From: a virus
Length of the DNA: 64,000 nt
Virus record (IMG/VR): IMGVR_UViG_3300034358_000008
Location: 186,001-250,000 of that record
Direction: 5' to 3' (one strand)
Every line of letters begins with the position of its first letter. Within the stretch, counting starts at the first letter, position 1. A program made the translations under genes and the position numbers. A model generated the notes under the pieces. That model was given only the letters and a program-made list of their open reading frames with translations, was not told where the DNA came from and made no database searches. Positions 1,924 to 55,971 of this stretch are shown one piece after another.

Positions 1924-1945
1924 GCCCCAGCCGTTAGGCCGGGGC
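1924..1945. terminator. bidirectional terminator, TATG-flanked
   Basis: GCCCC-A-GCC pairs with GGC-C-GGGGC around a GTTA loop, between converging genes. It is flanked by GTCATAAAG on the left and CAATATG plus a long T run on the right, so it can end transcription in both directions. It belongs to the recurring CATA-hairpin-TATG class found throughout the window. Confidence 0.75.
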
Positions 1946-6743: not shown

Positions 6744-6876
6744 TTTAAATCCTTGATAGTAAAATAGTGGATTGTATCGTGTACCATCTTGTGTGTAAGT
6801 ATTTAATTGTCGATGGTTTTAATCACTATTTTTATGAATGATTAACTAAACCTCGATTAAACCAAAGGTTAACTGT

Positions 6877-7413
6877 ATGACCCAGCTCTTAGTCGTACCA
6901 GAAGCAGTTTACGATCAGTGGAAATCTGATGGTGTACTCTTCACACGTCTTTTAGACACCAACTATATAGCTAGCGTTAGTTCGGTTAACGATCTGGCGC
7001 AAATCGACTTAGCTATGAACCAATTTCCATTCGTGTTTGGCCCCGGTACAGGCGTAAGTCTGGCTGTTAGCCCACGAGCTGGCATTGCAATTGCATCGAC
7101 CGCAGATAACCTCGAACGGTTTAAGATGCAAGATTTGCATAATGCTTTAGAGGAACGTGTCGAAACGATCACGCTCCGTTTCACTAATGAACCAAAAGTT
7201 TGTAGTGAATATTCCCTTTATCCTGTAGATGAGAATCTTTGGGTTGCGGTGCAGAAGAGTCTGCCTATCACCAATAGCGATCCTGAACGGTTTACCTTGA
7301 TCAGTAACCGTACGTTCTTCGATAGTATGATTAATGAGTTGCTGAGAACTTGTAAATTAGAGCAAGTAGCATCAACGAATCTCTTCAACTATTATCTTAT
7401 GTCCAAGGTCTAG
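6877..7413 (+). CDS. hypothetical protein upstream of the capsid gene
   Basis: I do not recognise this 178-residue soluble protein. It contains a Gly/Ala stretch (VFGPGTGVSLAVSPRAGIAIA) between helical segments and no clear motif. It is divergent from the helicase, with 133 bases between them that must hold promoters for both genes, and it is followed after 74 bases by the capsid gene. The position suggests a late gene, perhaps co-transcribed with the capsid gene. Confidence 0.65.
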   Translation: MTQLLVVPEAVYDQWKSDGVLFTRLLDTNYIASVSSVNDLAQIDLAMNQFPFVFGPGTGVSLAVSPRAGIAIASTADNLERFKMQDLHNALEERVETITLRFTNEPKVCSEYSLYPVDENLWVAVQKSLPITNSDPERFTLISNRTFFDSMINELLRTCKLEQVASTNLFNYYLMSKV

Positions 7414-7487
7414 TTCCGGTGAAAAATAGGCCTGGACAATAGATACTCGTTTAAAACCAAAACCCATCCTGCGTAGGAAATTATTAG

Positions 7488-9707
7488 ATGAAAACTTTGA
7501 AATCTCTTCTGAAGGCTAGCGCCACAGATAAACCAGTCTTCTCCATGGAAGCATTCGTAAGCAAGCTGAACCTCGAAAACGATCTGGCCGATGGCGTGTT
7601 TAATACCGCAGCTGGTCTGGCCGCTACCGTAGGTCTGGAAAGCTTTGGTCAAAAGGATGACGCTCAAGCTGCGTCGAACGTATTCAAGACTCTGACTCAG
7701 ATGGCTACCAAGCTGGGCTTTGAGCAGTACATCTCCGAAGACGCTCGCGTTGCAGAGAACCAACTGACTGCTGCTTTCCTGGGTACTATTGCTGCCGCTA
7801 ACCCGGATCAGTACATCAAGGCTCTGCGTGGCCTGTCGAAGGTAATCCCTTCGAACGAAGCTATCAAAACCATCGAACACAAATTCGACGGTCCTGCCGG
7901 TTCCCTGCAAGTATTTGACGCTGAAGGCGCCAAGACCATGGGTCTGGAAAACTACAACGAGAAATCGCAACGTGACTTCCGTGTTGTAACCGTTGGTTAT
8001 AACCTGGCAGCTTCCCGTCAGGATGAGTTCTCCGAGCGCATCTACCCAACTACCGTTATCAACCCTATCGAGGGTGGTGTAGTTCAGGTACTGCCGTACA
8101 TCGCTGTAATGAAAGACGTCCATCACGCTGTTAACGGTGCTCGTTGGAAGAACGAAGAAGTGAACATGGTAGAAGCATACCGTGATCCGTCGATTCTTGA
8201 CGACAACGCTACTGATCTGATCGTTGCGATCGATCCAGCTGGTACCAACCTGGACTTCTTCGTTGACCCGGCTCTGATTCCTGCTGAGACCATTGTTAAC
8301 GAACAAAACCTGTCGATCGAAACCGCTCCTCTGAAGCCTGGTATTCGTATTGACCTGATCGGTAACTCCAACGCTAACCTGCTGATCTCGGCTGGCATGC
8401 TGGAAGTATCTGATACCATCGACCCTGCTGGTCGTCTGAAGAACCTGTACGTTAAGTTCCAAGGTAAAGTTGTTAAGTTCAAAGTTGACCGCATGCCTCG
8501 CGCTGTGTTCCAACCTGACCTGATCGGCGACACCCGTGGCGCACGTATCGACTTCTGGACTGATGATCTGAGCGTAAGTTCGATCACCCGTACTATCGAC
8601 GGCGTACAAACTGCTGCAATGCAAGAACTGACCCAGCGTGAATGGGTACTGCGTCTGAGCGTTGACTTCAGCGGTAACATCAGCACCTCGAAAGGTGACT
8701 CCCGCTTCAACAACGGTACTGCCGAAATCTCGGCTATCCTGAACTCTGACCGTCGTCCAGTAGATATGAAATCTGGCGCTGGTAAAGTTCTGGTTGATTC
8801 GATCACCGATCTGGAAATCGTTGGTTTCGACCTGCTCACTCGGTTCACCAACACTAACCGCCGTCAACGTGGTCACCTGTTGCAAACCCGTGCTCTGCAA
8901 TTCCGTCACCCAATCCCGATGCACGCTCCAGTGACTCTGCCACTGAGCACCATGGAAGATGAAGGTCCAGGCGAAGTTGTTAAAGCACTGACCGTGAACA
9001 CCAACATTCGTAACAGCAACAACGCTGTTAAGACTCTGTTGAACTACCTGGCTCAACTGCGTGAACTGACTGGTAATGGTTTCAACCGTCCAGTTATCAA
9101 CGTGTACGAAGGTGCGCTGGCCGCAGTAATGCGTCCTACCTACCACTTCGAACGCATGCACTTGCCAGACATGATCGATACCCTGAAGTCGAAAGATCGT
9201 TGGGACGACGTTTGCTCCGCTATCCTGAACAAAGTTAAAGGTGCGCTGTTCCCAGCCTACCGTAACTCGAACATCGAAGCTGCTTTCCGAGTGATCTCGG
9301 GCAACCAAGATGAGCGTCCAATGTTCCTGTTCTGCTCGGACAAAGAGATCGCCAACTACCTGATGACCAAAGGTGACGACCGTACCCTGGGTGCTTACCT
9401 CGAGTACGACATCGTATCGACCAACAACGAACTGTTCGACGGTAAGCTGGTAGTAGTACCAACCCGTAAGACCCCAGTAGAGAACGACATCCTGAGCTTC
9501 GGTCAGTTCTTCTACGTGTCGACTATCATCGCCGATCTTCCGATCAGCCGTGGCGGTCACCAGGTCTCCCGTGAGATCGCAGCCATTCCTTTCAACCTGC
9601 ACATCAACAACATTCCATTCGCACTGGAATTTGAAGTAACAGGCTTCCAGGAAGTAATGGGTCACTCGCAGTGGAACAAGCCCGTCGTTGACGGCCTGAA
9701 TGCCTGA
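7488..9707 (+). CDS. major capsid protein, phiKZ type
   Basis: The 739-residue protein has the length and style of phiKZ-type major capsid proteins (about 750 residues). The N-terminal 154 residues are helical and Ala-rich and contain several small-X-Glu sites (SME21, NLE30, GLE51, GLE154). Cleavage after Glu154 (MGLE then NYNE) would release the mature shell protein, matching the size of propeptide known for the family. The rest is a long beta-rich HK97-like region with no enzymatic motif. Codon use favours C-ending codons such as CTG, AAC and GGT, as expected for the most highly made virion protein. A folded RNA and a terminator follow. Confidence 0.85.
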   Translation: MKTLKSLLKASATDKPVFSMEAFVSKLNLENDLADGVFNTAAGLAATVGLESFGQKDDAQAASNVFKTLTQMATKLGFEQYISEDARVAENQLTAAFLGTIAAANPDQYIKALRGLSKVIPSNEAIKTIEHKFDGPAGSLQVFDAEGAKTMGLENYNEKSQRDFRVVTVGYNLAASRQDEFSERIYPTTVINPIEGGVVQVLPYIAVMKDVHHAVNGARWKNEEVNMVEAYRDPSILDDNATDLIVAIDPAGTNLDFFVDPALIPAETIVNEQNLSIETAPLKPGIRIDLIGNSNANLLISAGMLEVSDTIDPAGRLKNLYVKFQGKVVKFKVDRMPRAVFQPDLIGDTRGARIDFWTDDLSVSSITRTIDGVQTAAMQELTQREWVLRLSVDFSGNISTSKGDSRFNNGTAEISAILNSDRRPVDMKSGAGKVLVDSITDLEIVGFDLLTRFTNTNRRQRGHLLQTRALQFRHPIPMHAPVTLPLSTMEDEGPGEVVKALTVNTNIRNSNNAVKTLLNYLAQLRELTGNGFNRPVINVYEGALAAVMRPTYHFERMHLPDMIDTLKSKDRWDDVCSAILNKVKGALFPAYRNSNIEAAFRVISGNQDERPMFLFCSDKEIANYLMTKGDDRTLGAYLEYDIVSTNNELFDGKLVVVPTRKTPVENDILSFGQFFYVSTIIADLPISRGGHQVSREIAAIPFNLHINNIPFALEFEVTGFQEVMGHSQWNKPVVDGLNA

Positions 9708-9919: not shown

Positions 9920-10390
9920 ATGAGCTTTCTTTCCCGTTACTGGAATGCTGTTGAAAGACAACATACCGAAACTGGTATGAACCATGGTGACATTCGTGTG
10001 GATGTCAAACTCTTAAAAGAAAATACTCGGGTGAGTGATATTGTAGATCCCCAACCAACCCAACCTAAACCTCAAACCAACCGTCCTATCAAGGATGGAT
10101 CTATGCCCTCTACTAAATTTGAACGGGGGTCGGCTAGGCCGTACCAACGAGTTCAAGAAATGGCAGAAGATACACGGCCAATCCGCGAAGCGAAAGCTTC
10201 ACGAAACCGCAGTGTGGAAAACGAACGATCGGGGGGATCGGGTACAAGTGGTGATCAAACGAAAACGACCGCCAGGGAAGTTAAACGTCTTAGAAATAAG
10301 GCGTTGAAGAAACTAGGGGCTGGACGCAAAGTAAATGTCCAGTTAGATAAGGTAGTCATTGATGGACAATCTTGGCATCAAACGGCCTAA
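9920..10390 (+). CDS. charged, disordered hypothetical protein, 156 aa
   Basis: I do not recognise this protein. It has a short helical start (MSFLSRYWNAVERQHTETG) followed by a long Pro-, Arg-, Lys- and Ser-rich region that looks disordered, and a basic end (RLRNKALKKLGAGRKVNVQL). Such a composition fits a nucleic-acid- or RNA-polymerase-associated accessory protein, but nothing proves it. Its 3' end overlaps the next gene by 32 bases, and the beta-N subunit gene follows two genes later. Confidence 0.6.
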   Translation: MSFLSRYWNAVERQHTETGMNHGDIRVDVKLLKENTRVSDIVDPQPTQPKPQTNRPIKDGSMPSTKFERGSARPYQRVQEMAEDTRPIREAKASRNRSVENERSGGSGTSGDQTKTTAREVKRLRNKALKKLGAGRKVNVQLDKVVIDGQSWHQTA

Positions 10391-11402
10391 GGTAATTGAC
10401 TGTAACCCCTCCCTAGATCCTCCGCAGTATGCTGGTAGTACGTATGACACGAGAGACGTTTATAACGCCTACTCGAGGCCAAGGGGACCACGTAGCGTTG
10501 ATGTGTTAAATACATCTCCCATTCCTTTGTCAGTAATGTATTCTGACGGCATGGTGGTAAACATCCCATCTGACAATCAGAGCTTCAAACAAGAAGCGAC
10601 CGTAATAGTGCGTTATGAGATTTCAGGGGGTGCTACAATTCCCTGGGCTAACGTTAGCAAGAACTTACCAGAGCAAGACGTAGCATTCATCCAAAAGGTG
10701 AAAGAGCGATTCGACCGTGAGGTTAATAATGGATCGTATGCTCCGTGTGTGGTGGAGTTCTATTACATCGTCGATATCGGGGATTTAGATTATCGACCAA
10801 ATGGAATATACATCAAGCCAGCTGATGTTCAGTTGGTGTCAACGCGTCATCTGGACGTAGCGGTTCCATACCGAAGACAGGCACAAATAGGCATAGCAGA
10901 CTTTAACGATGATGAGGGGGTGTCTCAAGCAGCGACATGTATGGCTGCTTACGTTGTTCATGATCCTACCGATCGTGAGACGTTGTTTATGGTTTCAACA
11001 ACTGGCCTAGTTGTGTTAGATCCGGTGTGCACTCAAGAACTACCTGAGGGTGTACATCTAATCTCTATTGGCGGTCGTAGGTCTCCCGGAGATACGAGAA
11101 CGTCTGAGGTGGAACATATTCCAATTGCTGACTTCCGCAAGCGAATGTGCTTTCGCGGACTAGACAACTTTAATAACAACTTTGATCGAGAGACCAAGTC
11201 GTTACCTAAAGCTGATGTCGACAAAATGTTTAAGCGTATGCAAGAGTTCCTGGATCAAAATCTAATACCACCGAATGTACAGGGTGGACCGGAACAGTTG
11301 GTAGACATTCGTTGTTTCTTTGGACACAGTTTGAAAGAGGTATTAGGTGTACTCGATCATGCAGTGAAGCTGAAGACCAACATTGAAAAACTTGTTAGCT
11401 AG
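10359..11402 (+). CDS. unknown protein between capsid and RNA polymerase genes, 347 aa
   Basis: I do not recognise this mostly beta-stranded 347-residue protein with a final helical segment (LKEVLGVLDHAVKLKTNIEK). No signal peptide or catalytic motif is seen. It overlaps the previous gene by 32 bases and ends 12 bases before the RNA polymerase fragment, so the three form one operon. By position it corresponds to the gene before the beta-N subunit in phiKZ-type genomes, as I remember the order. Two consecutive ATGs (10359, 10362) are possible starts. Confidence 0.6.
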   Translation: MMDNLGIKRPKVIDCNPSLDPPQYAGSTYDTRDVYNAYSRPRGPRSVDVLNTSPIPLSVMYSDGMVVNIPSDNQSFKQEATVIVRYEISGGATIPWANVSKNLPEQDVAFIQKVKERFDREVNNGSYAPCVVEFYYIVDIGDLDYRPNGIYIKPADVQLVSTRHLDVAVPYRRQAQIGIADFNDDEGVSQAATCMAAYVVHDPTDRETLFMVSTTGLVVLDPVCTQELPEGVHLISIGGRRSPGDTRTSEVEHIPIADFRKRMCFRGLDNFNNNFDRETKSLPKADVDKMFKRMQEFLDQNLIPPNVQGGPEQLVDIRCFFGHSLKEVLGVLDHAVKLKTNIEKLVS

Positions 11403-11414
11403 GTAGATGGCAGT

Positions 11415-13037
11415 ATGGATAAATTCCTCATCAGTAAAATGTTGGAACGAACACCGGCTTTCAATAAAACGATTGCTGACGGCATTGCCTTGGATCACTT
11501 AATGGGTGTGAACTCAGGTGGTGTATGTAACCGGCGTGCTTACATTGACCAACTCTGGGCGATTAACGCCATGATGTTCCCAGAGGGTTTCAAGTACGAG
11601 GGGAGTGTTGTCTGCCGACCTGAGAAGATGTTCGATGAGATTACACGGGAGTATGGTTCGAAGCGTAATGCAAACATCGCTAAGACCAACATCCGAATGA
11701 TCGCATTGAAGAGTTCATTCAAAGGCGAACCTCTGTTTGACCGTCACATCCTCATCCCGTTCGTAGAACAGGCTGGGACAACGTGCATCAACGGCGCGAA
11801 GTATGGCCTGTCTCCAGTAATGACTGACGTAGGTTATTCTGTACTGAACAACAGTTTGTTTATTCCGTTCCAACGGGCCAAGCTTACGTTCAAGCAGGTG
11901 GACCATCATTACGTTTGTAATGGTAAGCGTGAGATCATGTACGTGATCTGGTCGCAAGTCCACAACGAGATGTCCAAGCGTACGAAGCGTGACCTTGATA
12001 ACCGACCACACATCGAATCGTGCGTGGCACAATACTTCTTCTGTGAGTTCGGTGTAAAGGAAACATTCAAGCGTTGGGCTAATGCTGATGTACAAATCGG
12101 GTACTTCAAGGATTTCAATCCAACAGACTACCCACGTGACCAATGGAACGTTTATCAATCAGCTGTATTGGTTGGGAAGCATCCTACTGGTGATATGGCT
12201 ATCGCTGTACCTAAGGAAGCAGACTCAGACTTCGTACAACGCTTAATCGCGGGCTTCTGGTATGTAGTCGATGCTTTCCCTAGCCGTTTCGTAGAACCCC
12301 ACTACCTCGACTCTAAGGAGTTGTGGCGGATCATTCTTGGCCTGATGATCTTCGGTGACTTTGAGCACCAAGGTAAATTGGCGGAGAACATCGATTCCCA
12401 CTTGAAGTCCTTCAATAGCTCTCTCGATGAGATGACCATTAAGGAACTGGGTAGCGTTGGGATTAAGGTCACAACGATCTGGGAACTGATGTACAAGATC
12501 ATGACAGACATGGCTCATCACTTGTACGACACTGACTTGGATGAAACCAGTCTGTGGAACAAGAACCTGTCTGTGTTGCGTTATGTGTTTGCTGACTTGA
12601 ACTATGCGATCACCATGTTTGGTTATTCGTTCCAGTCACGTCTTAACAAAGATTGGACCGCTCAAGAAATCAATGACGCCATGAAGCGGTCGTTTAAACT
12701 GAATACCTGTATGCGTAAGCTTACCAGTGAACACGGCGAGTTCGACACTATCAGTTATCCGGGTGATAACAAAGCAATCAAGTTAACGTCGATGGTAGTA
12801 CCGCAGGATCGTGCCCGAACTAAAGGTGGGCATAACAAATCCTTGATCGGTGACTCCAGTCGACTGATTCACGTATCTCTGGCACCAATCGGCCAATATA
12901 AAAACCAACCTAAGAACAACCCTGATGGTCGTGGCCGACTCAACCTGTATGCGGACGTATCGCATGATGGATTGATTAAGCGTAACGAAACTGATCGGTT
13001 ATTCTTGGATAGCGTTCAAGAACGTTTCAATCGTTAA
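11415..13037 (+). CDS. putative RNA polymerase beta subunit, N-terminal part (non-virion enzyme)
   Basis: The 540-residue protein appears to be the N-terminal half of a split RNA polymerase beta subunit, as carried by phiKZ-type phages for late transcription. A segment near residues 112-130 (ILIPFVEQAGTTCINGAKYG) has the same pattern as the bacterial beta signature (IPLMT, GTF, INGTERV). Near residues 460-515, LIHVSLAPIGQYKNQP fits the position of the bacterial segment before the catalytic half. Its place three genes after the capsid gene is where phiKZ keeps this subunit (gp123, from memory). The catalytic second half is not encoded adjacent to it. Similarity is by eye, so alternative assignments remain possible. 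Confidence 0.6.
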   Translation: MDKFLISKMLERTPAFNKTIADGIALDHLMGVNSGGVCNRRAYIDQLWAINAMMFPEGFKYEGSVVCRPEKMFDEITREYGSKRNANIAKTNIRMIALKSSFKGEPLFDRHILIPFVEQAGTTCINGAKYGLSPVMTDVGYSVLNNSLFIPFQRAKLTFKQVDHHYVCNGKREIMYVIWSQVHNEMSKRTKRDLDNRPHIESCVAQYFFCEFGVKETFKRWANADVQIGYFKDFNPTDYPRDQWNVYQSAVLVGKHPTGDMAIAVPKEADSDFVQRLIAGFWYVVDAFPSRFVEPHYLDSKELWRIILGLMIFGDFEHQGKLAENIDSHLKSFNSSLDEMTIKELGSVGIKVTTIWELMYKIMTDMAHHLYDTDLDETSLWNKNLSVLRYVFADLNYAITMFGYSFQSRLNKDWTAQEINDAMKRSFKLNTCMRKLTSEHGEFDTISYPGDNKAIKLTSMVVPQDRARTKGGHNKSLIGDSSRLIHVSLAPIGQYKNQPKNNPDGRGRLNLYADVSHDGLIKRNETDRLFLDSVQERFNR

Positions 13038-13052
13038 TAAATAGGAATCAAC

Positions 13053-15173
13053 ATGTTTCAGAATAACCAAGCACCGCAACTGCCAGTTCCTTACAATGGC
13101 ATTGACCCTAGCACCCAGAACCCAAACCTGCCACAAGGCAATGATCGCGTTCCACAAATCCAGCTTTCTCCGTGGATGAATCAGAACCAACAGATCGGGC
13201 TGTATGCTATCGGTCTGTTTCGGTCGATTGCGCAGAGCGCTGTAGGTAACTCCGCTACTCACGTTGCGGCATATAACCTGCTCTCTCAGAACCAGTTCCA
13301 AAACCAACTGTATCCTCAATGGTGTCAGATGGCAGTAGAACTGACTGAGCTTCTGATTCGTGCTAAGAACTATCAACCGGAAGCTGCTGTGAAGATGGCT
13401 GCTCAACGTGTCTATGAAGCATTATTGGGTATGGTGTTCCAAACCTATACCCAACTGCAACAGGTCACCGATAGCAAGTTTTGGCCAGGTCTGCAAACAG
13501 CTGCTCAGATCTACCAACAGGTAGTGAACGATATCAACGGTTTCCGTAACGGTGGTATGCAGCAACAACCACAGCAGAACTTCCAACAAGGCAATGGCAG
13601 TTATAACGGTGGTTCTCAACTACCACCGATTAACTTCCAGCAGCAGAACAATGCTTATAGCCAACCACAGAACAATGGGATCAACAACTTCCAGACTTCC
13701 GGTAATGGTCCAGCCTATAGCCAACCTAGTGCTTACAGCCAGCCAACCGCACATGGTGCCGAAGGCGTAGGTAATAGTTTCTATGATGACCCAGCACCAG
13801 TTAAACCGTTGCGTCCAGTAGAAGAGATCAGCAGCGACAACACTGATTATTTCGGTAACCCAATCCGTCAGGAACAACAACCAATGCAAACGTTCAACCA
13901 ACCAACCAGTGGTAACGAGTTCCATCCAACCGAAGATTACACCGACCTGCCTGCACCGATGTCGGTTGATGATGTAGTGATGGACCCAACCTACTACACA
14001 CCAAAAGGTTTCAAGCTGGATATCAATCGTCCGTACGATGCGATCTATAGTCCAGGTGGCGTAGTAACTCGTCCAGCACAACAGGTCGATTGGGAACTGA
14101 CTGTCGGTGATGACATGCCTTGGGAGCAGATGGTTGACCCAAGTCGCTTCTGCTTGTTCTATGTCAAGTTCCCTGATGGCGCAGTAAAAGAGAAATTCGT
14201 AGAATGGACAGCAACCATGAATTACCTTCAACATGAACAAGACGCAGAGATGCGTCGTAAAGCCTATCGTCCGAATGGTGAAGTCGTTGCATCGGATACT
14301 CCAATCTCCACGATCGGTGGTGATGCTGCAACTGAGTCCGATGTATTCTCGATGGTTCAAGATGGTCACCTGAAACGTAGTGCAGTTCCGCCAGTTATCT
14401 TGGCTACTACTTTCTCCGGTGCAACTGATCTCGAAGTTGAGATGACTGTACGTGAAGAACTCCAGAACCTTCTGGAAGTTGCATTCACCAAAGACATCCC
14501 AATGCCAGCAGCAGAGTATCGTTCGACTTTCCTGCATCCGATCAACGTATCGGAAGAGTGCTTCAACAAGCTGACCATGGTTAGCAAACAAGAAGAACTG
14601 TCTCAGGTTGCCTTGCAGTTGCGTGAACTGGTTCTGCAAGACGTACTGCCAGTGCGTTACTTCCGTTTCATCAATGATCGTCTGACCAAGGCTGTCAATG
14701 GTGTACTGGCAGATGGCATGACACTGAACATGGACATCACAGATTTCTGTGAAGACTATCTGGAACTGGAAGACTATCTGGCTTCCAAGAAAGGCGATGC
14801 AATGGTTCAAGTTCTGCGTGGTTCCGTCCACAGCGTTCTGAACAAAGCTATGCACCTGATGGAAACCGTGGAAAGCACCGATGCTGATGCTACACCGGTA
14901 TACCAGATTGCCGACAACTACATCAACTTCCAACTGGGTTGGACTTTGGATCAGCTGTCGACTCAGAACGTCCGTAATGGTAAAGCTGTACTGATCTCTG
15001 CATCGGCACACCCAACCTTGCTGGAAGCTCTGCGTGGTATGATCACTCGTGCCGCTACCAACGAAGAGTTCGTTGCTGGTACTATGCGTCTGATCACTTC
15101 GGATGGCGTGTATCTGGAAGTTATCAAAGGTCGTCTGATGCAGAAAGCAACTCTGCTCAAGATGATCAAGTAA
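13053..15173 (+). CDS. large Gln/Asn-rich probable late protein, 706 aa
   Basis: I do not recognise this protein. Residues 1-165 are Gln/Asn-rich but partly helical. Residues 165-265 are a low-complexity Gln, Asn, Pro, Ser and Tyr stretch with recurring AYSQP units and look disordered. Residues 300-706 form a folded acidic domain with long helices and no catalytic motif I can name. It begins 15 bases after the RNA polymerase gene and ends at a terminator. It may be a virion protein or associate with transcription. Confidence 0.6.
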   Translation: MFQNNQAPQLPVPYNGIDPSTQNPNLPQGNDRVPQIQLSPWMNQNQQIGLYAIGLFRSIAQSAVGNSATHVAAYNLLSQNQFQNQLYPQWCQMAVELTELLIRAKNYQPEAAVKMAAQRVYEALLGMVFQTYTQLQQVTDSKFWPGLQTAAQIYQQVVNDINGFRNGGMQQQPQQNFQQGNGSYNGGSQLPPINFQQQNNAYSQPQNNGINNFQTSGNGPAYSQPSAYSQPTAHGAEGVGNSFYDDPAPVKPLRPVEEISSDNTDYFGNPIRQEQQPMQTFNQPTSGNEFHPTEDYTDLPAPMSVDDVVMDPTYYTPKGFKLDINRPYDAIYSPGGVVTRPAQQVDWELTVGDDMPWEQMVDPSRFCLFYVKFPDGAVKEKFVEWTATMNYLQHEQDAEMRRKAYRPNGEVVASDTPISTIGGDAATESDVFSMVQDGHLKRSAVPPVILATTFSGATDLEVEMTVREELQNLLEVAFTKDIPMPAAEYRSTFLHPINVSEECFNKLTMVSKQEELSQVALQLRELVLQDVLPVRYFRFINDRLTKAVNGVLADGMTLNMDITDFCEDYLELEDYLASKKGDAMVQVLRGSVHSVLNKAMHLMETVESTDADATPVYQIADNYINFQLGWTLDQLSTQNVRNGKAVLISASAHPTLLEALRGMITRAATNEEFVAGTMRLITSDGVYLEVIKGRLMQKATLLKMIK

Positions 15174-15183
15174 CTGCATAGAC

Positions 15184-15203
15184 GCCCTACCTTCGGGTAG
15201 GGC
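15184..15203 (+). terminator. terminator with UUCG loop
   Basis: GCCCTACC pairs with GGTAGGGC around TTCG, eight bases after the stop at 15173-15175, followed by TTTATGTC. Confidence 0.8.
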
Positions 15204-15215
15204 TTTATGTCATTT

Positions 15216-23650: not shown

Positions 23651-23670
23651 CCCCTACCAATCGGTAGGGG
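23651..23670. terminator. terminator after the portal gene
   Basis: CCCCTACC pairs with GGTAGGGG around AATC, identical to the capsid terminator. The flanks are CATATTG on the left and TTTTATGCCG plus a T run on the right. It separates converging genes. Confidence 0.8.
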
Positions 23671-23688
23671 TTTTATGCCGTTTCTTTT

Positions 23689-27690: not shown

Positions 27691-29055
27691 ATGGCTAACA
27701 TTTACGTAAGGTTATCGTACGACCCCACCGGACGAAACCCTGATAACCTGATCCCCGGTGAACCCCATGATCTTCAATCGATCAACGGTTTCCCTTACAA
27801 GATCGTTACGATGAATAACGGTGGTTTCTATTCTCGTACATTGCGTGTATACGACGCATCATACACAAAGCTGACACCTAACGTCGATTACATCTTTACT
27901 TATCGTTTCGCTAACCTCAGTACTAAACTGGGTTTAGAAGTAGCTGCCGATATCGTCTTTCTTGACCCAGCACGTACAGGTAAGGTTTATCTGTCTGCTC
28001 AGATGGTCGGTGGCGATGTAGCATTTAGTTTGACCGCAATAGCCGACTACATTAGTTGGTTCACCACGCAGCCTGCCGGTTATAAGCCTCGTGAGATGGA
28101 CTATGCTGGTAATGAACCTATCTGGAAGCCAGGTGAGCTTGATAAAGAACGTTGGGCGCTTGATACCTATCAACCATTCAACAATGAAATTTATCAGATG
28201 GGTCGAGCGGTACAAGGGCAGACCGGAACATACGAACAAGACTACCGCGATAACGTCACCCGTGACTATAACGCTTTCTTAGATCTGTTCAATGATCGAC
28301 TGGAACGACATATTCAAGATGAGGCTAACCCACACGCCGATGAAAAGGCTGACGTTGGATTAAACCTAGTTGAGAACTACGCTCTAGCTACCGATCAGGC
28401 AGCTCGTGCAGGTGCCGTGAATAACCTTTACTTGACCCCGTTGTTGTCTTGGTCCACAGTAGATCAACTAGCAGTGCAACCACTGAACACTCACATCGCT
28501 AAACGTGATAACCCGCACCAGACTACACCAGAGAAGATTGAATCTCCCCGTAAACCTGTAGTCGATGCAACTGCTGCCCAAAAGTATCTGCGTTATGAGC
28601 AAGTAGCCAACACCGATTACTTCAGTGACGGTAACGCCGCTTACAGTTATAACGAGTACTATCAATTTGCTCGTCGTAACATCCCAGCAGCTAACTTCTT
28701 GTCGGGCGGTGGTAACGGGTATATTGATCCACGTCGATTGGGTCGTGGTAGTCCTGGTGGTAACACGGCGCTTAATGGTGATGGTCAGTGGGTATCATGG
28801 GATTCCATTATTATCCAACATGGCGCACCACCTTCTCCACAGATTTACCCTGTTGGGTCGTGGGCGAGTGCAGCACAAGGACATCAGTTCGTTGTTAGTC
28901 AACCATGGTCATTCAGCGCACCAGTCGGGTCGATGGCATTCTATCGTGTCAGCACAGCCAACTGGTGGGGTACTGGTAACGGTGTGATTCAAACCTTTCA
29001 TCCGATCATTTATGGTTCGTACAAATCAGCATCCGGTTGGCTTCAACTACTTTGA
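27691..29055 (+). CDS. tail fibre protein 2 of the array, 454 aa
   Basis: This is a paralogue of the first fibre protein. The N-terminal domain (NPDNLIPGEPHDLQ, then YDASYTKLTPNVDY) aligns with the others. Two fibre repeats follow (HIQDEANPHADEKADVGLNL near 210 and HIAKRDNPHQTTPEKIES near 270). The C-terminal third is Gly- and aromatic-rich (FLSGGGNGYIDPRRLGRGSPG) and ends in a beta-rich domain with several tryptophans, as in receptor-binding tips. It lies ten bases from the next paralogue. Confidence 0.75.
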   Translation: MANIYVRLSYDPTGRNPDNLIPGEPHDLQSINGFPYKIVTMNNGGFYSRTLRVYDASYTKLTPNVDYIFTYRFANLSTKLGLEVAADIVFLDPARTGKVYLSAQMVGGDVAFSLTAIADYISWFTTQPAGYKPREMDYAGNEPIWKPGELDKERWALDTYQPFNNEIYQMGRAVQGQTGTYEQDYRDNVTRDYNAFLDLFNDRLERHIQDEANPHADEKADVGLNLVENYALATDQAARAGAVNNLYLTPLLSWSTVDQLAVQPLNTHIAKRDNPHQTTPEKIESPRKPVVDATAAQKYLRYEQVANTDYFSDGNAAYSYNEYYQFARRNIPAANFLSGGGNGYIDPRRLGRGSPGGNTALNGDGQWVSWDSIIIQHGAPPSPQIYPVGSWASAAQGHQFVVSQPWSFSAPVGSMAFYRVSTANWWGTGNGVIQTFHPIIYGSYKSASGWLQLL

Positions 29056-29064
29056 GGTGATTAC

Positions 29065-30429
29065 ATGATTCCTGTATTACAAGCTCTACCGATCGATTGG
29101 TCGGGTGAGTCCCCTGATAACCGGACTAAAGGGGAGGTCCATGATCTTTCCCCGCAGTTCGATCTACCTTACCGCATTGTGGTAATGGAGAAAGGTTATT
29201 TCTACACCGACAACATGTACATCATCGACAACCGTGGCCACGTCCTTAAAGAAGATGTTGACTATCAATGTTTGCTGATGGAACAGACTGTAGCTAAGAA
29301 GCGTGGTTTGACAGCATGTGCGGTTCTGGTAGTCACTAACCCTAGTGTGGGTAACTTCCTGTACATAGAAGCTCAGATGGTCGGTGGTCTTTATTGCTCA
29401 CTGAACACAGCTATCTTGGAACAAGCTGCTAACGTTATTCGTTCAGCTAACCGTAAGGTCTTCTGGAAGAACCTGAAAGACAAACCTGATAGCTATCGTC
29501 CTAACGGTCACTTACATGCATTGTGGGAACTCTTTGGCTTCACTCCTCAGACAGCTATCCTACACCGGATGACTACTGCACTGGACAAGATGTCGAAGAA
29601 AGAATTCGATAACCTGTACGGTGAGTTTGTCATTAAGTTTGATGCGGTCAGGCAACAACTTGCTGACGTTGAAGCTCGATTGACTACGCACATTGCAGAT
29701 ACTTCAGATCCCCATGACGTGACAGTAGAACAAGTCCATCTGGAGTTTGTCTATAACGCCCCGCCGGCAACGATTGCTCAAGCACAGTCGGCTTCAGGTT
29801 CGGTGATGAATGCCTATGCTACACCTTTGCGTGCAGCACAGTCGATTGCAGTTAACTTCACCCCGCAACTCCAAGCGCATATCGATGACTACAACAATCC
29901 ACACCAAGACACAGCTGCAAAACTTGGTACGATGACTAACATCGAAATGAACCAACTTGCTAACCTGTACTACAATCGTGGTGACACGACTACGTACGCC
30001 GTTGGATTGGGTGGTTTGCCTTGGGCTAACTTCTACCAGCAAGTTCGTGCTAACCTCCCCGCGGCTGCGTTGACCACTGGGTTCCTCCCATGGCAAACGT
30101 TCTCTGGGCAAATCTGGCAAGGTTCTAGTTATGTATTAGCCCCGTCGATATTCGGTATCCTAGGTTGGCGATCTATTGCATCGATCTTTAGTATCTATGC
30201 GAAGAGAGGCAATGACATTCTTTACATTGGGGCTTTGCCTTACGCAGCTTCCCCGTCTGTCATTGGTAGTATGATTGGAACCAACTGGCCCAACGGTACT
30301 ATCGTAATTTACCGGTCGAACAACGAATCCGGTGCTAGCACAGGTAACGGTGGTCTCTTGACTGTCTTTAACTCACTGGCAATGGCAACCATTAGTAACG
30401 GCACATGGTATTCACCTGGATGGCGTTAA
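29065..30429 (+). CDS. tail fibre protein 3 of the array, 454 aa
   Basis: This protein has the same plan as its neighbours. The N-terminal anchor is recognised by SPDNRTKGEVHDLS and IIDNRGHVLKEDVDY. Two repeats follow (HIADTSDPHDVTVEQVHLEF and HIDDYNNPHQDTAAKLGTM), then a beta-rich tip with Asn/Gly/Ser loops. The anchor is well conserved while the tip is different from that of fibre 2, as expected when tips diverge for different receptors. Spacing of ten bases on both sides indicates one operon. Confidence 0.75.
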   Translation: MIPVLQALPIDWSGESPDNRTKGEVHDLSPQFDLPYRIVVMEKGYFYTDNMYIIDNRGHVLKEDVDYQCLLMEQTVAKKRGLTACAVLVVTNPSVGNFLYIEAQMVGGLYCSLNTAILEQAANVIRSANRKVFWKNLKDKPDSYRPNGHLHALWELFGFTPQTAILHRMTTALDKMSKKEFDNLYGEFVIKFDAVRQQLADVEARLTTHIADTSDPHDVTVEQVHLEFVYNAPPATIAQAQSASGSVMNAYATPLRAAQSIAVNFTPQLQAHIDDYNNPHQDTAAKLGTMTNIEMNQLANLYYNRGDTTTYAVGLGGLPWANFYQQVRANLPAAALTTGFLPWQTFSGQIWQGSSYVLAPSIFGILGWRSIASIFSIYAKRGNDILYIGALPYAASPSVIGSMIGTNWPNGTIVIYRSNNESGASTGNGGLLTVFNSLAMATISNGTWYSPGWR

Positions 30430-30438
30430 GAGGTAACT

Positions 30439-31785
30439 ATGGCATCGATCACAAAACTCCCCTTAGACTTCAAGGGGACACTCACTTCTAACTATCGTTC
30501 GGGTGAAGAACATACGTTGACTAAGGCTAATGGTCGAGTCAACAGAATGTTCACTCCTGACTTTGGTGCATTCTATACCGAGTCCCTCGTGGTCCGTCAA
30601 TCAGACGGCCAACTGCTGGTTCGTGATAAAGACTATGTGTTGACGTATTTTTACAAAGACCTCGGCGACGTTACAGCCAAAGAGATCTGCGCGATCATCG
30701 TAGTAACCAATCCTGTCGTTACGGCTACCGTTCGTATTACCTATCAAGCTGTAGGTGGTCCATACGCTCTGAGCATTAAAGAACTCAAAGCTGTGTTGGA
30801 TGAAACTGAACTGGCTCCGGGTAAGATCAAATGGGAAGATATCATCGATAAGCCTTTGGCCTATAACCCCGATGACCACGCCCATGAGTATTGGCAGCTT
30901 TATGGACTGGAGTCCACGAACTTCAACCTTGACGCTTTGGGTAAGGCATGGGCTAAAGGACGTAAAGCCATCATTGGCGATAACCGTATTTACTACCAGA
31001 ATTACATCATCCTTGCTCAAGCAGCTGTTGATGCGTATCGTCTTAAAGTAAATGCTCACATCGTTGACCGAGCTAACCCACATAAAACGGATAAGATTAA
31101 AATCCAGTTGGGTAACGTCAATAACTGGCCATTGGCAGACACAGCGACATCGACCTCTAAAACGGTGAATAATAAATACCAGCCAATCGGCGGTATCTAT
31201 AATCAGTTGGTTACACATGTCGTTCCGTTACTTAACGCTCACGTTAATAACATGGCTAACCCACACCAAGTCCAGCTAACTGATCCACTACTGAATCTTT
31301 ATAGCTCGCAGCAGATCAGAGACATCTTTAATCTGCATTTGGCAAAGACTCAGATGGCCAACGATTCAGCTAAGTTCGCAGGTTTCCCGGCGACTACGGT
31401 GTTTAACAATATCCGTACCGGTTTGGATGCATCTAACGTCGATCCGAATACTCGCTTCCCTGAGGCAATGTTTGGCCCTACTGTTCCAGGTTGGGACCCA
31501 GGCCAATGGATACTTGCAGGTAACCAACGTTACGCATACATTCAGGATATCCTCAAGCCATACAACGACCTAGCCGGTACAGTGTATTTCGTAGGTTCCA
31601 GTGGTGATGTTACTACCATCCAGTCAGCTTACAACGCTATTCAGATTGCCTCTAACAACCCTGAGATTAATGTTAACGCATGGTTGATTGGACAATACGC
31701 GTACGATTACGTTGCTGGTCTGCGTAACGTCAGTCTGGTAGTTGCACAGAAGACTGGACCCGGTACTTGGGCAATTCGAGTTTAA
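30439..31785 (+). CDS. tail fibre protein 4 of the array, 448 aa
   Basis: This is the last full-length paralogue. The anchor is seen as LTSNYRSGEEHTLTK and VVRQSDGQLLVRDKDY. The repeats are HIVDRANPHKTDKIKIQLGN and HVNNMANPHQVQLTDPLLNL. The C-terminal domain differs from that of fibres 2 and 3. It is followed after 20 bases by a small helper-like gene. All four full-length fibres probably occupy related positions on the baseplate. Confidence 0.75.
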   Translation: MASITKLPLDFKGTLTSNYRSGEEHTLTKANGRVNRMFTPDFGAFYTESLVVRQSDGQLLVRDKDYVLTYFYKDLGDVTAKEICAIIVVTNPVVTATVRITYQAVGGPYALSIKELKAVLDETELAPGKIKWEDIIDKPLAYNPDDHAHEYWQLYGLESTNFNLDALGKAWAKGRKAIIGDNRIYYQNYIILAQAAVDAYRLKVNAHIVDRANPHKTDKIKIQLGNVNNWPLADTATSTSKTVNNKYQPIGGIYNQLVTHVVPLLNAHVNNMANPHQVQLTDPLLNLYSSQQIRDIFNLHLAKTQMANDSAKFAGFPATTVFNNIRTGLDASNVDPNTRFPEAMFGPTVPGWDPGQWILAGNQRYAYIQDILKPYNDLAGTVYFVGSSGDVTTIQSAYNAIQIASNNPEINVNAWLIGQYAYDYVAGLRNVSLVVAQKTGPGTWAIRV

Positions 31786-37390: not shown

Positions 37391-40300
37391 ATGGCTGATC
37401 CAAAAAAAGCTGGTATGATCTCGGGCATGTCGCCCCTTGCAATCATCACTGGTGATGAGCTGATGGAAGTCTCCTCGCGTCAAAGCGATGGGACTTGGAA
37501 AACGTTTTCCATTCTGATCAACAAGATCCGTACCAACCAAGGTCTCTCTGCCTATGAAGTAGCTGTGAAGAACGGTTACCAAGGCACAGAAGTCGAGTGG
37601 TTGGATACGCTGAATGGTAAGTCGGCATATGAACTTGCCGTAGAGCTAGGCTTTACCGGCACTGAAGCACAATGGCTGAAGACCCTCGTCGGTGAATCCG
37701 CTTACGATGAAGCTGTAGATCAAGGCTTCCCCGGTACCGAAGCTGAATGGCTGGCGTCTCTAGTTGGTAAGTCCGCCTTTGAAATTGCTAAGGCTAACGG
37801 CTTCGTGGGCACACAAGTTGAATGGCTTGCAAGTCTGAAAGGCCACTCGGCTTATCAGATCGCCAAAGAAATTGATCCAACTGTAGGTACTGAGGCTGAA
37901 TGGCTCCAGACTTTGGTTGGTGCTTCTGCTTACCAAACAGCTGTGGATAAAGGTTTCGTTGGTACAGAAGCTGCTTGGTTGGATTCCCTCAAAGGTAAGT
38001 CCGCTTATCAGATCTGGGTTGCCTCGGGTAACAGTGGTACTGAAGCTGACTTCATCGCTTCGCTGAAAGGTGAAGACGGTACCGACGGTGATGATGGCGA
38101 ATCTGCTTATGCGCTGTGGGAAGCTATCCCGGCTAACGCAGGTAAAACAGAAGCCGAGTTCCTCGATTCCCTTAAAGGGAAGGATGGTACTAATGGCACC
38201 AACGGTAACGACGGTGAGTCGGCCTATGAGGTCTGGGAATCTCTTCCTGGGAACGCAGGTAAGACCGAAGTTGACTTCATCGTTAGTCTGAAAGGCCAAG
38301 ATGGTACCAACGGTACCGATGGCACAAACGGAACAGATGGTGAATCCGCTTACGAAGTTTGGGAAGGTCTTCCAGGCAATACTGGTAAAACACCACAAGA
38401 GTTTATTAACTCTCTGCGTGGCACCAATGGTACTAACGGTACCAATGGCGCAACCGGTAAGTCTGCTTATGAAGTGTGGCTCCTGCAAGCTGGTAATGCC
38501 GGTAAGACAGAAGCTGAGTTCATTGCCAGCTTGAAAGGTACAGACGGCACTAACGGAACCAATGGTACTAATGGTGCAGCTGGTAAATCGGCTTACGAGA
38601 TTTGGGTAGCACTACCAGCTAACGCCGGTAAGACCGAACAACAGTTCTTGGATAGCCTTGTTGGTAAATCTGCTTACGCTGAATGGTTGGCACTGGGTAA
38701 CACCGGTGATACCTCTGCATTCTTGCTGTCTCTGAAAGGTGACCGCGGGGCGCAAGGCGACTCGGCTTATCAAGTATGGTTGGCGGCTGGTAATACTGGT
38801 TCGCAAGCTGTTTACTTGGCATCCCTCAAAGGTAGTGATGGTGAGAATGGTACTGACGGCACCGATGGTGCTGCTGGTAAACCAATCACTGTGTTGGACG
38901 AATTGACCCAAGCTGAATTCGATCAGATCGTATCGGAAGGTACTTCTGCAACCGCTGATGCTTACTGGGTAGGTGACTTCATCTACGTTTACAACGGTAC
39001 TGACTGGGTTCAATCCCCGAACGTTCGTGGTAAAGATGGTAAAGGTCTGAACTATCTGGGTGAATGGCCAGGTAACCTCTCGCTGCCTTTGGGTAGCAAC
39101 TACGTAGCTGGCGACACTTACGTTTGGGGTCAAGACAACCTGAACAAATCCCTGTGGACTTTGGTTGAAGAACCGACTCGCGCTTGGGTTGATATCGGTG
39201 TTCCAGGTCCTAAGGGTGATTCCGCTTACCAAACTTGGTTGGGTCTGCCTGGCAATGCCGGTAAAACACAGCAAGAATTTATCGACTCTATCAAGGGCGA
39301 TAAAGGTGATGATGGTGACATCGGTCCTATTGGTAAGTCGGCATACGTGTTGGCTCAAGAGGAAGGCTTCGTAGGTACTGTTGAAGAGTACGTCGAATCC
39401 CTGCATGGTCAATCTGCTTATCAGACTTGGGAAGAACAAGCTGGTAACGCTGGTAAAACCGAAGCGGAATTCATCGCTAGCCTGAAAGGCGCTAAAGGTG
39501 ATGCCGCTGCTGCATTTGAGATCATCGATCAGCTGACCAACATCTCTCAGTTGCCACGTCCGGGTGATGCTACTCGTGCTTACTACGTTAACAAAGATCT
39601 CTACGTTTGGTTCACTGCTAAAGACGACTATGAGAACCTCGGTTCTCTGGACGGCGCTTCGGCATACCAAGTTTGGCTGGATCTGGGTAACACTGGTACT
39701 GCACAAGACTTCATCAATAGCCTGAAGGGCACTAACGGTACCAATGGTACTAACGGCGCATCTGCCTACGATACTTACAAAGCCCTTCCGGGTAATGCAA
39801 GTAAGACTGAGGCTGAATTCATCGCCTCTCTCAAAGGTACTGATGGGACAAACGGTACCAATGGTACTAACGGTAAGTCTGCTTACGAGCTGGCTGTAGC
39901 TGGTGGTTACGTTGGGACTGAAGCTGCTTGGATTGCTTCGCTCAAAGGTAAGAACCTGCAAGTGAATGGTACTCAGGCTAACGCTGCTGCTATTCAAGCA
40001 CTACCTACCCCTGCTAACCAAGATGCTTGGGTTGCTAACGATACCGGTAACCTGTGGATCTATGCTACCTCTGCTTGGATCGATGCTGGTCTTTTCCGTG
40101 GTGCTAAAGGTACAGACGGTACTAATGGCCAATCGGCCTATGAACTCTACAAAGCTCAACCGGGTAACTCTGGTAAGACTGAAGCTGAGTTCTTGGCTTC
40201 GCTGAAGGGCACCAATGGTACTAACGGTACCAATGGCACGAACGTAAAAGTTCTGGGCTCTAAGGCTAACCTTGCTGCTATCCAAGCTTTGCCAACTCCT

Positions 40301-41746
40301 GCACAACAGGATGCTTGGACTGCTCTGGATACACTGCACCTGTACATGTACATCGGTGCTGCTTGGGTGGACCTCGGTTCGTTCAAAGGTGACAAGGGCG
40401 ATCAAGGTATCCAAGGTCCTGCTGGTCAAGGTATCAACATCGTAAGTACAGTCACTCTGTTGGCTGACCGTCCACTGGCTTCTACCCTGAATCCAGGTGA
40501 TGCTGTTTACGTTGAAGCTACTGGTTCCCTGTACCAAGTGAACGATGCACACGTCTATGGCGTAGGTATTCCGATCCGTGGTCTGAAAGGCGACAAAGGT
40601 GATCAGGGTAACCAAGGTGTGATGGGTCCTGGTATTACCATCCAAGGTTCCTACGCTACCGCTGCTGCTCTGATTGCAGCGCATCCTACCGGTTCTCCGG
40701 GTGAAGCTTACACTGTTGGTTCTAACCTGTACCTGTACGGTGTTAACCCTGTTGGCGGCGCTACTGAGTGGTATAATGCCGGTCAGTTCAAAGGTGACAA
40801 GGGTGATAAAGGCGACATTGGTAACCGTGGTCTTCCGGGTGATAAAGGCGTTAAGGGTGATCGCGGTTCGCTGTGGCTCAACCTTGGCTCTACTGCTGCT
40901 CCGACTCCGACTTACGGTACCGTAGGCGATTGGGCTATCACCACTGACTTCATTACTTACTACAAGGATGAAGGCGCTGGTTGGGTTCGTATTGGTCCAA
41001 TGGTTCCAGGTGGTATCTCCTCGCCTGCAATCGGTCTCGGTAAAGTTGTCCGTGAGGGCGACAACTGGGTAGCATTGCCAGTGGACGAAGTTACTTCTCC
41101 AGTACTCGACACACAGTACGTCCGTAAGGGTATTGCTGGTGGTAAGACTGTCTGGGCTGTACTGAGCGTTCCTGCTGCTGGTATCCCAGAAGTACCGGGC
41201 TCCACTGTTATCCCACAAGGTCGTACTTCGGCTGGCTGGGTATCGGTAATTGCTCTGCCGACTGGTCAAACAGCTGGTAAGCAATACGTTTGGAAAGATG
41301 GTGCTTTCGCCCTGTCTCCAATCCAAGTAGCTGCTGCTCCGGGTACAGTTGGTAAGGTATACGGTTACAGTGTCGATGGTAGTGGTGTTGGTTCGTGGGC
41401 AGACATGACCCTCGACTCCTACAACCTGCTGGCTGACGCCGCTCCACGTACCACCAGTTTCACTGTGAACCCAGCTACCCAGAACTGCTACTCTGTTTCT
41501 GGTACTACCGCTGGTATCGTAGTGACCTTGCCTAAGTTGGCTACCGGTCGTTCGATGATGTGTGTATTTACCGTAGTGGGTGCAACTAACAAGTTGACCT
41601 TCGCTGCTGGTACTGGTGCACCTACCGTCGCATACAACGGTAACACTGCTGCTGTTGACATTGAATACGGTGCTTCTTCGACCGTGCTCACTGCCTTCTA
41701 CAATGGTATCAACACTTGGATCATCTCCAAGGGTCCTGCTTACTAA
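37391..41746 (+). CDS. giant collagen-like modular tail fibre, 1451 aa
   Basis: The protein is built from about 21 copies of a short module beginning Ser-Ala-Tyr. There are two subtypes: one ends GTEAEWLASLKGK, the other reads NAGKTEAEFIASLKG. Between many modules lie collagen-like Gly-X-Y runs (GTNGTNGTNG, GDKGDKGDIG). Interspersed domains of about 70 residues (for example near 490-570 and 850-900, with AIQALPTPANQDAW) repeat twice or more. The C-terminal 300 residues are beta-rich and may be the receptor-binding tip. It should trimerise as a long fibre. It follows the endolysin, where phiKZ also has a large structural gene, as I recall. Confidence 0.8.
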   Translation: MADPKKAGMISGMSPLAIITGDELMEVSSRQSDGTWKTFSILINKIRTNQGLSAYEVAVKNGYQGTEVEWLDTLNGKSAYELAVELGFTGTEAQWLKTLVGESAYDEAVDQGFPGTEAEWLASLVGKSAFEIAKANGFVGTQVEWLASLKGHSAYQIAKEIDPTVGTEAEWLQTLVGASAYQTAVDKGFVGTEAAWLDSLKGKSAYQIWVASGNSGTEADFIASLKGEDGTDGDDGESAYALWEAIPANAGKTEAEFLDSLKGKDGTNGTNGNDGESAYEVWESLPGNAGKTEVDFIVSLKGQDGTNGTDGTNGTDGESAYEVWEGLPGNTGKTPQEFINSLRGTNGTNGTNGATGKSAYEVWLLQAGNAGKTEAEFIASLKGTDGTNGTNGTNGAAGKSAYEIWVALPANAGKTEQQFLDSLVGKSAYAEWLALGNTGDTSAFLLSLKGDRGAQGDSAYQVWLAAGNTGSQAVYLASLKGSDGENGTDGTDGAAGKPITVLDELTQAEFDQIVSEGTSATADAYWVGDFIYVYNGTDWVQSPNVRGKDGKGLNYLGEWPGNLSLPLGSNYVAGDTYVWGQDNLNKSLWTLVEEPTRAWVDIGVPGPKGDSAYQTWLGLPGNAGKTQQEFIDSIKGDKGDDGDIGPIGKSAYVLAQEEGFVGTVEEYVESLHGQSAYQTWEEQAGNAGKTEAEFIASLKGAKGDAAAAFEIIDQLTNISQLPRPGDATRAYYVNKDLYVWFTAKDDYENLGSLDGASAYQVWLDLGNTGTAQDFINSLKGTNGTNGTNGASAYDTYKALPGNASKTEAEFIASLKGTDGTNGTNGTNGKSAYELAVAGGYVGTEAAWIASLKGKNLQVNGTQANAAAIQALPTPANQDAWVANDTGNLWIYATSAWIDAGLFRGAKGTDGTNGQSAYELYKAQPGNSGKTEAEFLASLKGTNGTNGTNGTNVKVLGSKANLAAIQALPTPAQQDAWTALDTLHLYMYIGAAWVDLGSFKGDKGDQGIQGPAGQGINIVSTVTLLADRPLASTLNPGDAVYVEATGSLYQVNDAHVYGVGIPIRGLKGDKGDQGNQGVMGPGITIQGSYATAAALIAAHPTGSPGEAYTVGSNLYLYGVNPVGGATEWYNAGQFKGDKGDKGDIGNRGLPGDKGVKGDRGSLWLNLGSTAAPTPTYGTVGDWAITTDFITYYKDEGAGWVRIGPMVPGGISSPAIGLGKVVREGDNWVALPVDEVTSPVLDTQYVRKGIAGGKTVWAVLSVPAAGIPEVPGSTVIPQGRTSAGWVSVIALPTGQTAGKQYVWKDGAFALSPIQVAAAPGTVGKVYGYSVDGSGVGSWADMTLDSYNLLADAAPRTTSFTVNPATQNCYSVSGTTAGIVVTLPKLATGRSMMCVFTVVGATNKLTFAAGTGAPTVAYNGNTAAVDIEYGASSTVLTAFYNGINTWIISKGPAY

Positions 41747-43048: not shown

Positions 43049-43723
43049 TTACACCAAGTTGTTATTCAAATGTTGAGCCTTCAGATATACCGAAAGAGTC
43101 TTGTTAGACTTAACGGTAGAATCAAACTCAGTCATGATAGAGTTAGTGGATGCTTCACCTGTTTCCAGAATGGAGCGATTCATTGCAAGGTATGCCTCTT
43201 CATCACCACCACGACATTTGATCAACTCACGGATCATATCGAACAAACCTTTCGAGGCGTTAACCTGAAGCTCAGGAGCCGACAGACGAGCACCTTTAGA
43301 GTCACCGGTAGGTTGGCCTGTACGTTGGTCGATAATGTGGTTAGACGAAGGGATAGAAGCCTTCTTGACCAGCATCTGTACTTGACGACGGAAAGGAACG
43401 ATACCTACAAGGTGTTTGTTAGCTGTCCGATACGTTTGACCTGTTTGTGGGTCAGTCAAAATTACATGCTGAAACAAATCGTACTCGAGTTCATCAGCGA
43501 TCTCATAGTTACGATTCATGTTAAGAGTGTACTCTTGCAAGTTAGGTGCATAGAGAGCCATGATCTCTGCGTCAGTTTCTAATGCAACAATCCACTCTTC
43601 AAATTCTTTGTCGTTCATACCAGCGAACATGTCAATATAGACTTGATCGTTTGCAGAACCGGGAAGGAATTTACTAATGAAATAGATGGCTTCCTTCTCA
43701 GCCGCTTTTCTGTCGTTAGCCAT
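43049..43723 (-). CDS. putative RNA polymerase beta subunit, C-terminal part (virion enzyme)
   Basis: The 224-residue protein resembles the last 150 residues of bacterial RNA polymerase beta. A segment MFAGMNDKEFEEWIVALE fits the bacterial VFDGATEAQIKELLKLAD. DPQTGQTYRTANKHLVGIVP fits DGRTGEQFERPVTVGYMYM. TGQPTGDSKGARLSAPELQ fits QQPLGGKAQFGGQRFGEME, and the closing helix and strand also fit. It sits a few genes from the UvsX-like gene and after the endolysin, where phiKZ encodes its virion beta-C subunit (gp149, from memory). The catalytic lysines of the beta subunit are not in this piece. The match is by eye. Confidence 0.6.
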   Translation of the reverse strand: MANDRKAAEKEAIYFISKFLPGSANDQVYIDMFAGMNDKEFEEWIVALETDAEIMALYAPNLQEYTLNMNRNYEIADELEYDLFQHVILTDPQTGQTYRTANKHLVGIVPFRRQVQMLVKKASIPSSNHIIDQRTGQPTGDSKGARLSAPELQVNASKGLFDMIRELIKCRGGDEEAYLAMNRSILETGEASTNSIMTEFDSTVKSNKTLSVYLKAQHLNNNLV

Positions 43724-45016: not shown

Positions 45017-46471
45017 TCAGGCAGCTTTCTTTTCGCCAGCAAGGCCTTTAGCAAGAGCGAGAGGAGTAATTTTGGCTTTATCTGCATCAGACATCCAGTA
45101 TGGTTTATAATCGCCAGTACGCATGCGTAGGAGATCGTAGGTGGAAAGGAACTTCTTCCGATCAGAATGCTCGTCTTCTGCACACATCCAGTAACCACGA
45201 GTATCACTCAGGATGAATTCCCAGTCATAACCCATAGCCTTCAGATCATCGTACAATGTCTTAGGATCACATACTTGCTCAGCAGTCCAACGTTGGAACA
45301 TGATCAGTTGCAGGAGTTCCGATTGGATCTCTACAGCACGCCGCAATGGACCAGAATCATCAAGCTTCTTACGCACGGTGGTACGAGTCAGTTTGATATC
45401 AGGACACAGTTCAACGTAGTAGTTCTGCAAGTTACCACCAATACCCCACGATGCTTCTTTGCAATAGTGGAACTCGGAGAGCGATGGGAGCAGACCTTCT
45501 GTTTGAGAAACGATCAGGTTGAAAGGCAGACCAGTAATACCACCTTTACCACGCAGGTTCTTGATCTCGAGAATACGGAGGTCAGAGTCACCCTGGATAG
45601 CGGTAGAGTTATCCAGTGGGTAGATAGGCATCTTATCTTTGTTCAGCAACACCTTGTTGGACATGATGTCCCAGACGTTGTTAGGCAAAGAATAGAAACC
45701 AGACGATACACCTTTAAGCACGGTATCTTTCTTCATTTCAGAAAGGTTACGCTTATCAGTAGGGTACATCTCCATCTGGATGATATCACCAACGTGTGCA
45801 GTCAGGATCATGTAAGTACCAGTCTTGGCACATACCTGAGGCAGTTGGTTAAACAGTTGGTTCTTCGCCTTGCCGTTCATCATTGCATCAGTGTTGTTAC
45901 CAGAAGCGCCGATGGCGTTCTTCTCGTACATGTCCGATACAGCGGTAACGATAAACTTGGAGAAGCTATCGATGAAACCAGTCGTTGGATACAAGCATTG
46001 ACGAGGAGCACCATGCATATCCAAGAATGGTGTAGTACGCATGTTAGACTTCGCATCTTTCTCTTTCTCACCAAGAGCTTTACGGAAGATACTGAAGAAT
46101 TCATCACCGGTATAACGAGACAAGTCGGTGAATACAAACTGATCATCGTTTTCCCAATCTACACTACGAATCTCTTCAATGGACTTAGCCAGAGAACTGA
46201 AACGAGCTACTGGGTTAAGCGTACCCTCAGTATCGTAGATCAATGCAGAACTGCCGGGAAAGGCACGACGGATCATAGCGAGCATGTACACGCCAAGAGC
46301 GGTCTTAAAGTTGTTAGGGCGTGAAGCGATACCAGTCAGTGACCCTAGGCCACCGTTCATGATCATCTCTCCGTGTTGACCCTGTTCATATTTACCTGTT
46401 GGAATATCCATCATGCACCCGATGTTCAGGGCAGGACGAAAGGCAGGTCGTTCAAAATGGTTTGCAAACAT
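45017..46471 (-). CDS. UvsX/RecA-like recombinase
   Basis: The 484-residue protein has the core pattern of RecA-type ATPases. The Walker A position lies at about 47-58 (GIASRPNNFKTALG), followed by an Asp-Thr-Glu strand (ALIYDTEGT) at the place of the catalytic Glu. A Walker B-type strand lies further on (GTYMILTAHVGD region). It should form filaments on single-stranded DNA and drive strand exchange in phage replication and repair. The Walker A loop has lost two glycines, as in the helicase of the window. It is divergent from the structural gene at 46577 across 105 bases with an ACAGT/ACTGT inverted repeat. Confidence 0.7.
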   Translation of the reverse strand: MFANHFERPAFRPALNIGCMMDIPTGKYEQGQHGEMIMNGGLGSLTGIASRPNNFKTALGVYMLAMIRRAFPGSSALIYDTEGTLNPVARFSSLAKSIEEIRSVDWENDDQFVFTDLSRYTGDEFFSIFRKALGEKEKDAKSNMRTTPFLDMHGAPRQCLYPTTGFIDSFSKFIVTAVSDMYEKNAIGASGNNTDAMMNGKAKNQLFNQLPQVCAKTGTYMILTAHVGDIIQMEMYPTDKRNLSEMKKDTVLKGVSSGFYSLPNNVWDIMSNKVLLNKDKMPIYPLDNSTAIQGDSDLRILEIKNLRGKGGITGLPFNLIVSQTEGLLPSLSEFHYCKEASWGIGGNLQNYYVELCPDIKLTRTTVRKKLDDSGPLRRAVEIQSELLQLIMFQRWTAEQVCDPKTLYDDLKAMGYDWEFILSDTRGYWMCAEDEHSDRKKFLSTYDLLRMRTGDYKPYWMSDADKAKITPLALAKGLAGEKKAA

Positions 46472-54722: not shown

Positions 54723-54736
54723 TGAGGAAGTACCAC

Positions 54737-55942: not shown

Positions 55943-55962
55943 GCCCTCCCGTTGGGGAGGGC
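55943..55962. terminator. terminator between inner-body and PAAR genes
   Basis: GCCCTCCC pairs with GGGAGGGC around GTTG. The flanks are GACATATT and TTTATGCTG, between converging genes. Confidence 0.8.
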
Positions 55963-55971
55963 TTTATGCTG

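Follow-up and report, generated by a model that had tools for sequence, protein, structure and literature searches.

The open reading frame at 11415-13037 (+) of the window, the 64,000-nucleotide stretch of DNA analysed here (bases 186001-250000 within a virus record 324,912 bases long), raises the question of whether a gene located among head genes encodes part of an RNA polymerase. The original prediction had called it the N-terminal half of a split beta subunit, and this is borne out. The gene starts with ATG and encodes 540 amino acids, and both sequence and fold identify the product as the orthologue of phiKZ gp123. A phmmer search of all PDB chains returns a single sequence, PHIKZ123 (E 1.6e-234, residues 2-538), which occurs in the cryo-EM entries 7OGP, 7OGR, 8QUE and 9RJS. 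Among the PHROGs families, phrog_2943 (“polymerase”) is matched with E 3.9e-194. The comparison with phiKZ gp123 that had been proposed along with the prediction yields a full-length match at 61% identity. We conclude that the product is almost certainly one of the five chains of the non-virion RNA polymerase (nvRNAP) of this phage, namely its beta-N subunit.

In phiKZ, the five-chain nvRNAP contains gp123 as a diverged N-terminal half of beta (PMC4666361, PMC8287921); this enzyme is active and rifampicin-resistant (PMC4666361), and gp123 has been purified and solved as part of it (PMC4666361, PMC8287921). Published work on the function of this polymerase and of gp123 (PMC4666361, PMC8287921, PMC7618050, PMC12809450) means that the structure and mechanism of a gp123-type protein are already known; what is new is the 11415-13037 sequence itself. 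Homologues of the window protein are found by tblastn in 199 phage records at E <= 1e-5 and in 222 at E <= 0.01, with identities ranging from 78% (the Viktualia orthologue and gp203 of 201phi2-1, the neighbours of which are identical in kind) down to approximately 19-20%. The window protein aligns with phiKZ gp123 over its full length and agrees with it in gene order, partner set, 13 of 14 pocket residues and TATG at the p119L position (the last three are described below), while 39% of the residues differ.

The gene is the third after that of the major capsid protein (7488-9707, +; phiKZ gp120 family, Pfam PhiKZ_MCP, E 1.5e-218), as originally stated, and is found between the orthologues of gp122 (10365-11402, +) and gp124 (13053-15173, +). 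These flanking genes are syntenic, as are the capsid gene and an open reading frame at the gp121 position (9920-10390, +) that has no informative family match. The order DnaB-like helicase, gp119, capsid, gp121, gp122, gp123, gp124 is the same in 201phi2-1 and in phiKZ, and the phiKZ gene order given in the prediction is correct. The strand opposite the capsid gene contains an open frame of 751 amino acids (7410-9665, -), probably just a side effect of codon composition. Elsewhere in the window, a tandem array of three paralogous virion structural proteins (phrog_2163) is encoded at 27691-31785, at the place of phiKZ gp133-135; a 1451-amino-acid tail fibre-like protein (37391-41746) is found where phiKZ has two genes, gp145 and gp146; a UvsX-like recombinase (phrog_97, 45017-46471) is at the gp152 position; and two adjoining internal head protein paralogues (phrog_8282) are found at 52893-55933.

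All the other nvRNAP chains have orthologues in the same record: gp55 (record 115872-117119, 66% identity), gp68 (record 125232-126815, 54%), gp71-73, which is the beta-C chain (record 130830-132896, 58% to gp71 and 65% to gp73), and gp74 (record 133136-135103, 66%). The catalytic half of beta, gp71-73, is therefore approximately 64.5 kb before the 11415-13037 gene, in agreement with the original statement that it is not adjacent. Here it is encoded by a single uninterrupted frame, whereas in phiKZ gp71 and gp73 are annotated as separate ORFs with gp72 between them. The prediction had mentioned neither the fifth, sigma-like chain (gp68) nor a second, virion polymerase, orthologues of which (gp178, gp180, gp80 and gp149) are also found in the record. 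One of them, the gp149 orthologue, a virion RNA polymerase beta fragment (43049-43723, -; phrog_3233), is within the window itself. Together with an orthologue of the nuclear shell protein gp54 (record 113821-115659, 45% identity), these genes confirm that the record belongs to a jumbo phage of the phiKZ type, which carries the two multisubunit polymerases and a gene for the nuclear shell.

Since both polymerases have split beta and beta' chains, and the gp149 gene shares the window, the 11415-13037 product could be read as a subunit of the virion rather than of the non-virion enzyme. However, the virion orthologues gp178, gp180, gp80 and gp149 are already present as separate genes in the record, and the solved match is an nvRNAP chain in all four of its PDB entries, which leaves assignment to the virion polymerase extremely improbable. 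Hardly any weight can be given either to a non-polymerase reading, in which the product would be a diverged capsid-cluster protein, structural or DNA-binding in function. That reading would fit the location among head genes and the failure to match a Pfam beta domain, but the orthologue was purified and solved in an active polymerase (PMC4666361, PMC8287921), and the nine fold matches of the window protein at E <= 0.001 are to RNA polymerase chains without exception.

The comparison of this nvRNAP beta-N chain with cellular beta gives a divided answer. A profile search against beta domains had been suggested as a check, and neither PF04563 nor PF04561 has a match anywhere in the record at E <= 10; both score in all 14 control genomes. 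This failure is expected because gp123 is a highly diverged homologue of the beta N-terminal half with few conserved motifs (PMC4666361). The original prediction had also seen the spacing of a beta-N signature in ILIPFVEQAGTTCINGAKYG (residues 112-131; 11748-11807, +) and its surroundings. In profile-profile comparisons (hhalign) of the window protein with E. coli beta and with a beta alignment, this segment pairs in both runs with IPLMTDNGTFVINGTERV of E. coli beta, which is the expected register and probably the motif that the prediction had in mind; the match is weak alone and falls short of significance (P 0.074 and P 0.057, respectively), unlike the identification of the whole protein, for which chance can be dismissed.

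The predicted fold, the remaining check, is that of a polymerase beta chain. Foldseek searches with an AlphaFold2 model, modest in quality (pLDDT 65.8, 22 sequences) and with low global TM-scores, match the phiKZ chain (E 2e-49), the AR9 nvRNAP beta-like chain (7s00_c; E 1.8e-14) and archaeal Rpb2 (E 3e-4). The AR9 chain is also found by a profile of the 16-member family (E 4.6e-14), in a match of nearly full length. In phiKZ gp123, the middle domain was identified as the beta2 lobe by DALI (PMC7618050). The link of the window protein to cellular beta thus rests on structure, here a modelled one, besides the solved orthologue. Thirteen of 22 relatives weakly match OGG_N (best E 0.00037); this was treated as chance, because the window protein lacks the match and only RNA polymerase chains are found among the nine fold matches. 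The fold and, around NG-T/A, a short local motif are common to the window protein and the N-terminal half of bacterial beta or archaeal Rpb2. In contrast to these, the window protein is a separate chain of approximately 540 amino acids without a Pfam-detectable domain, and the gp123-type chain itself carries promoter specificity (in phiKZ).

This specificity has recently been located. In the promoter-bound structure of the phiKZ enzyme, a gp123 pocket under the beta lobe holds the non-template TATG at late promoters, from -3 to +1 (PMC12809450), whereas AR9 reads a template-strand uracil promoter, mainly via the sigma-like gp226 (PMC12809450). Taking as the pocket the 14 gp123 residues with side chains named in PMC12809450, the alignment with phiKZ places their equivalents within residues 142-464 of the window protein (codons 11838-12806, +). 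Thirteen of the 14 are identical, the exception being S402, which is replaced by T, and this identity exceeds the 61% found overall (P 0.009). In an alignment of 16 members reaching approximately 20% identity, the 24 best-conserved of 540 columns include five pocket residues, Ser144, Phe151, His331, Ser334 and Gln466 in the numbering of phiKZ (P 0.0002), while the pocket residues Asn398, Tyr399 and Ser402 are variable. Position 399 is Tyr in the window protein and Ser in 201phi2-1. Because 201phi2-1 and Phabio have another residue in place of Tyr399, yet both retain the TATG of p119L, the Tyr399 contact with TATG seems dispensable.

The DNA side of this contact is also conserved at the only late-promoter site examined, p119L. 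TATG is found at the position of this phiKZ late promoter in 8 of 8 aligned phages; in the window it is at 6833-6836 (+), 44 bases before the start codon of the gp119 orthologue, and is the predicted nvRNAP start. Published work gives no consensus for late promoters beyond TATG. Within the gp118-gp119 intergenic region (6744-6876), all eight phages share a TAT three bases before the TATG (TATNNNTATG), with additional conserved bases upstream.

By analogy with phiKZ, the 11415-13037 product would join gp71-73 (beta-C), gp74 and gp55 (two beta' parts) and gp68 (sigma-like), and the five chains would make up the polymerase for late genes, the site of action of which is probably the phage nucleus. 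On the downstream DNA channel, the beta-N subunit would contribute the protrusion/lobe side, and its pocket may hold TATG (-3 to +1) on the non-template strand of late promoters, thereby fixing the start site. Five-chain assembly, late initiation and a phage-nucleus location are documented for phiKZ (PMC4666361, PMC8287921, PMC10612078), from which we infer assembly, activity, location and timing of the nvRNAP in the window phage. The 11415-13037 gene leaves the current picture of these polymerases unchanged and provides one more sequence that conserves the TATG pocket, a recent discovery in a beta-type subunit.

TATG, the late start consensus of the nvRNAP, is also associated with terminator-like hairpins. 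In the window, 21 of 44 strong GC hairpins have a TATG no more than 9 bases downstream, against a background of 1.65%; examples are found at 15184-15209 (+), 23651-23677 (+), 1924-1945 (-) and 55943-55969 (+). The excess is also found in 201phi2-1 (9 of 23) and in phiKZ, and across the three phages the TATG mostly starts 1-3 bases past the stem. When hairpins are defined more strictly, their tails have the consensus TATGNYGTT, and in the window phage the TATG is mostly 2-3 bases past the stem. A hairpin often has the motif on both strands, and the binomial P of 5e-26 overstates the evidence because both strands of one hairpin were counted as independent; the excess is nonetheless plain. It is conceivable, though unlikely, that the TATG pocket of the beta-N subunit acts in termination as well as in initiation. 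The TATG would reach -3 to +1 of the elongating enzyme approximately 5-7 bases past the hairpin, which would be close to the expected point of intrinsic termination, and the pocket could catch it there, after which the enzyme might pause, be released or restart transcription at that site. The hairpin-TATG motif may have been described before, and this association of hairpins with TATG is the part of the analysis that might merit more work.
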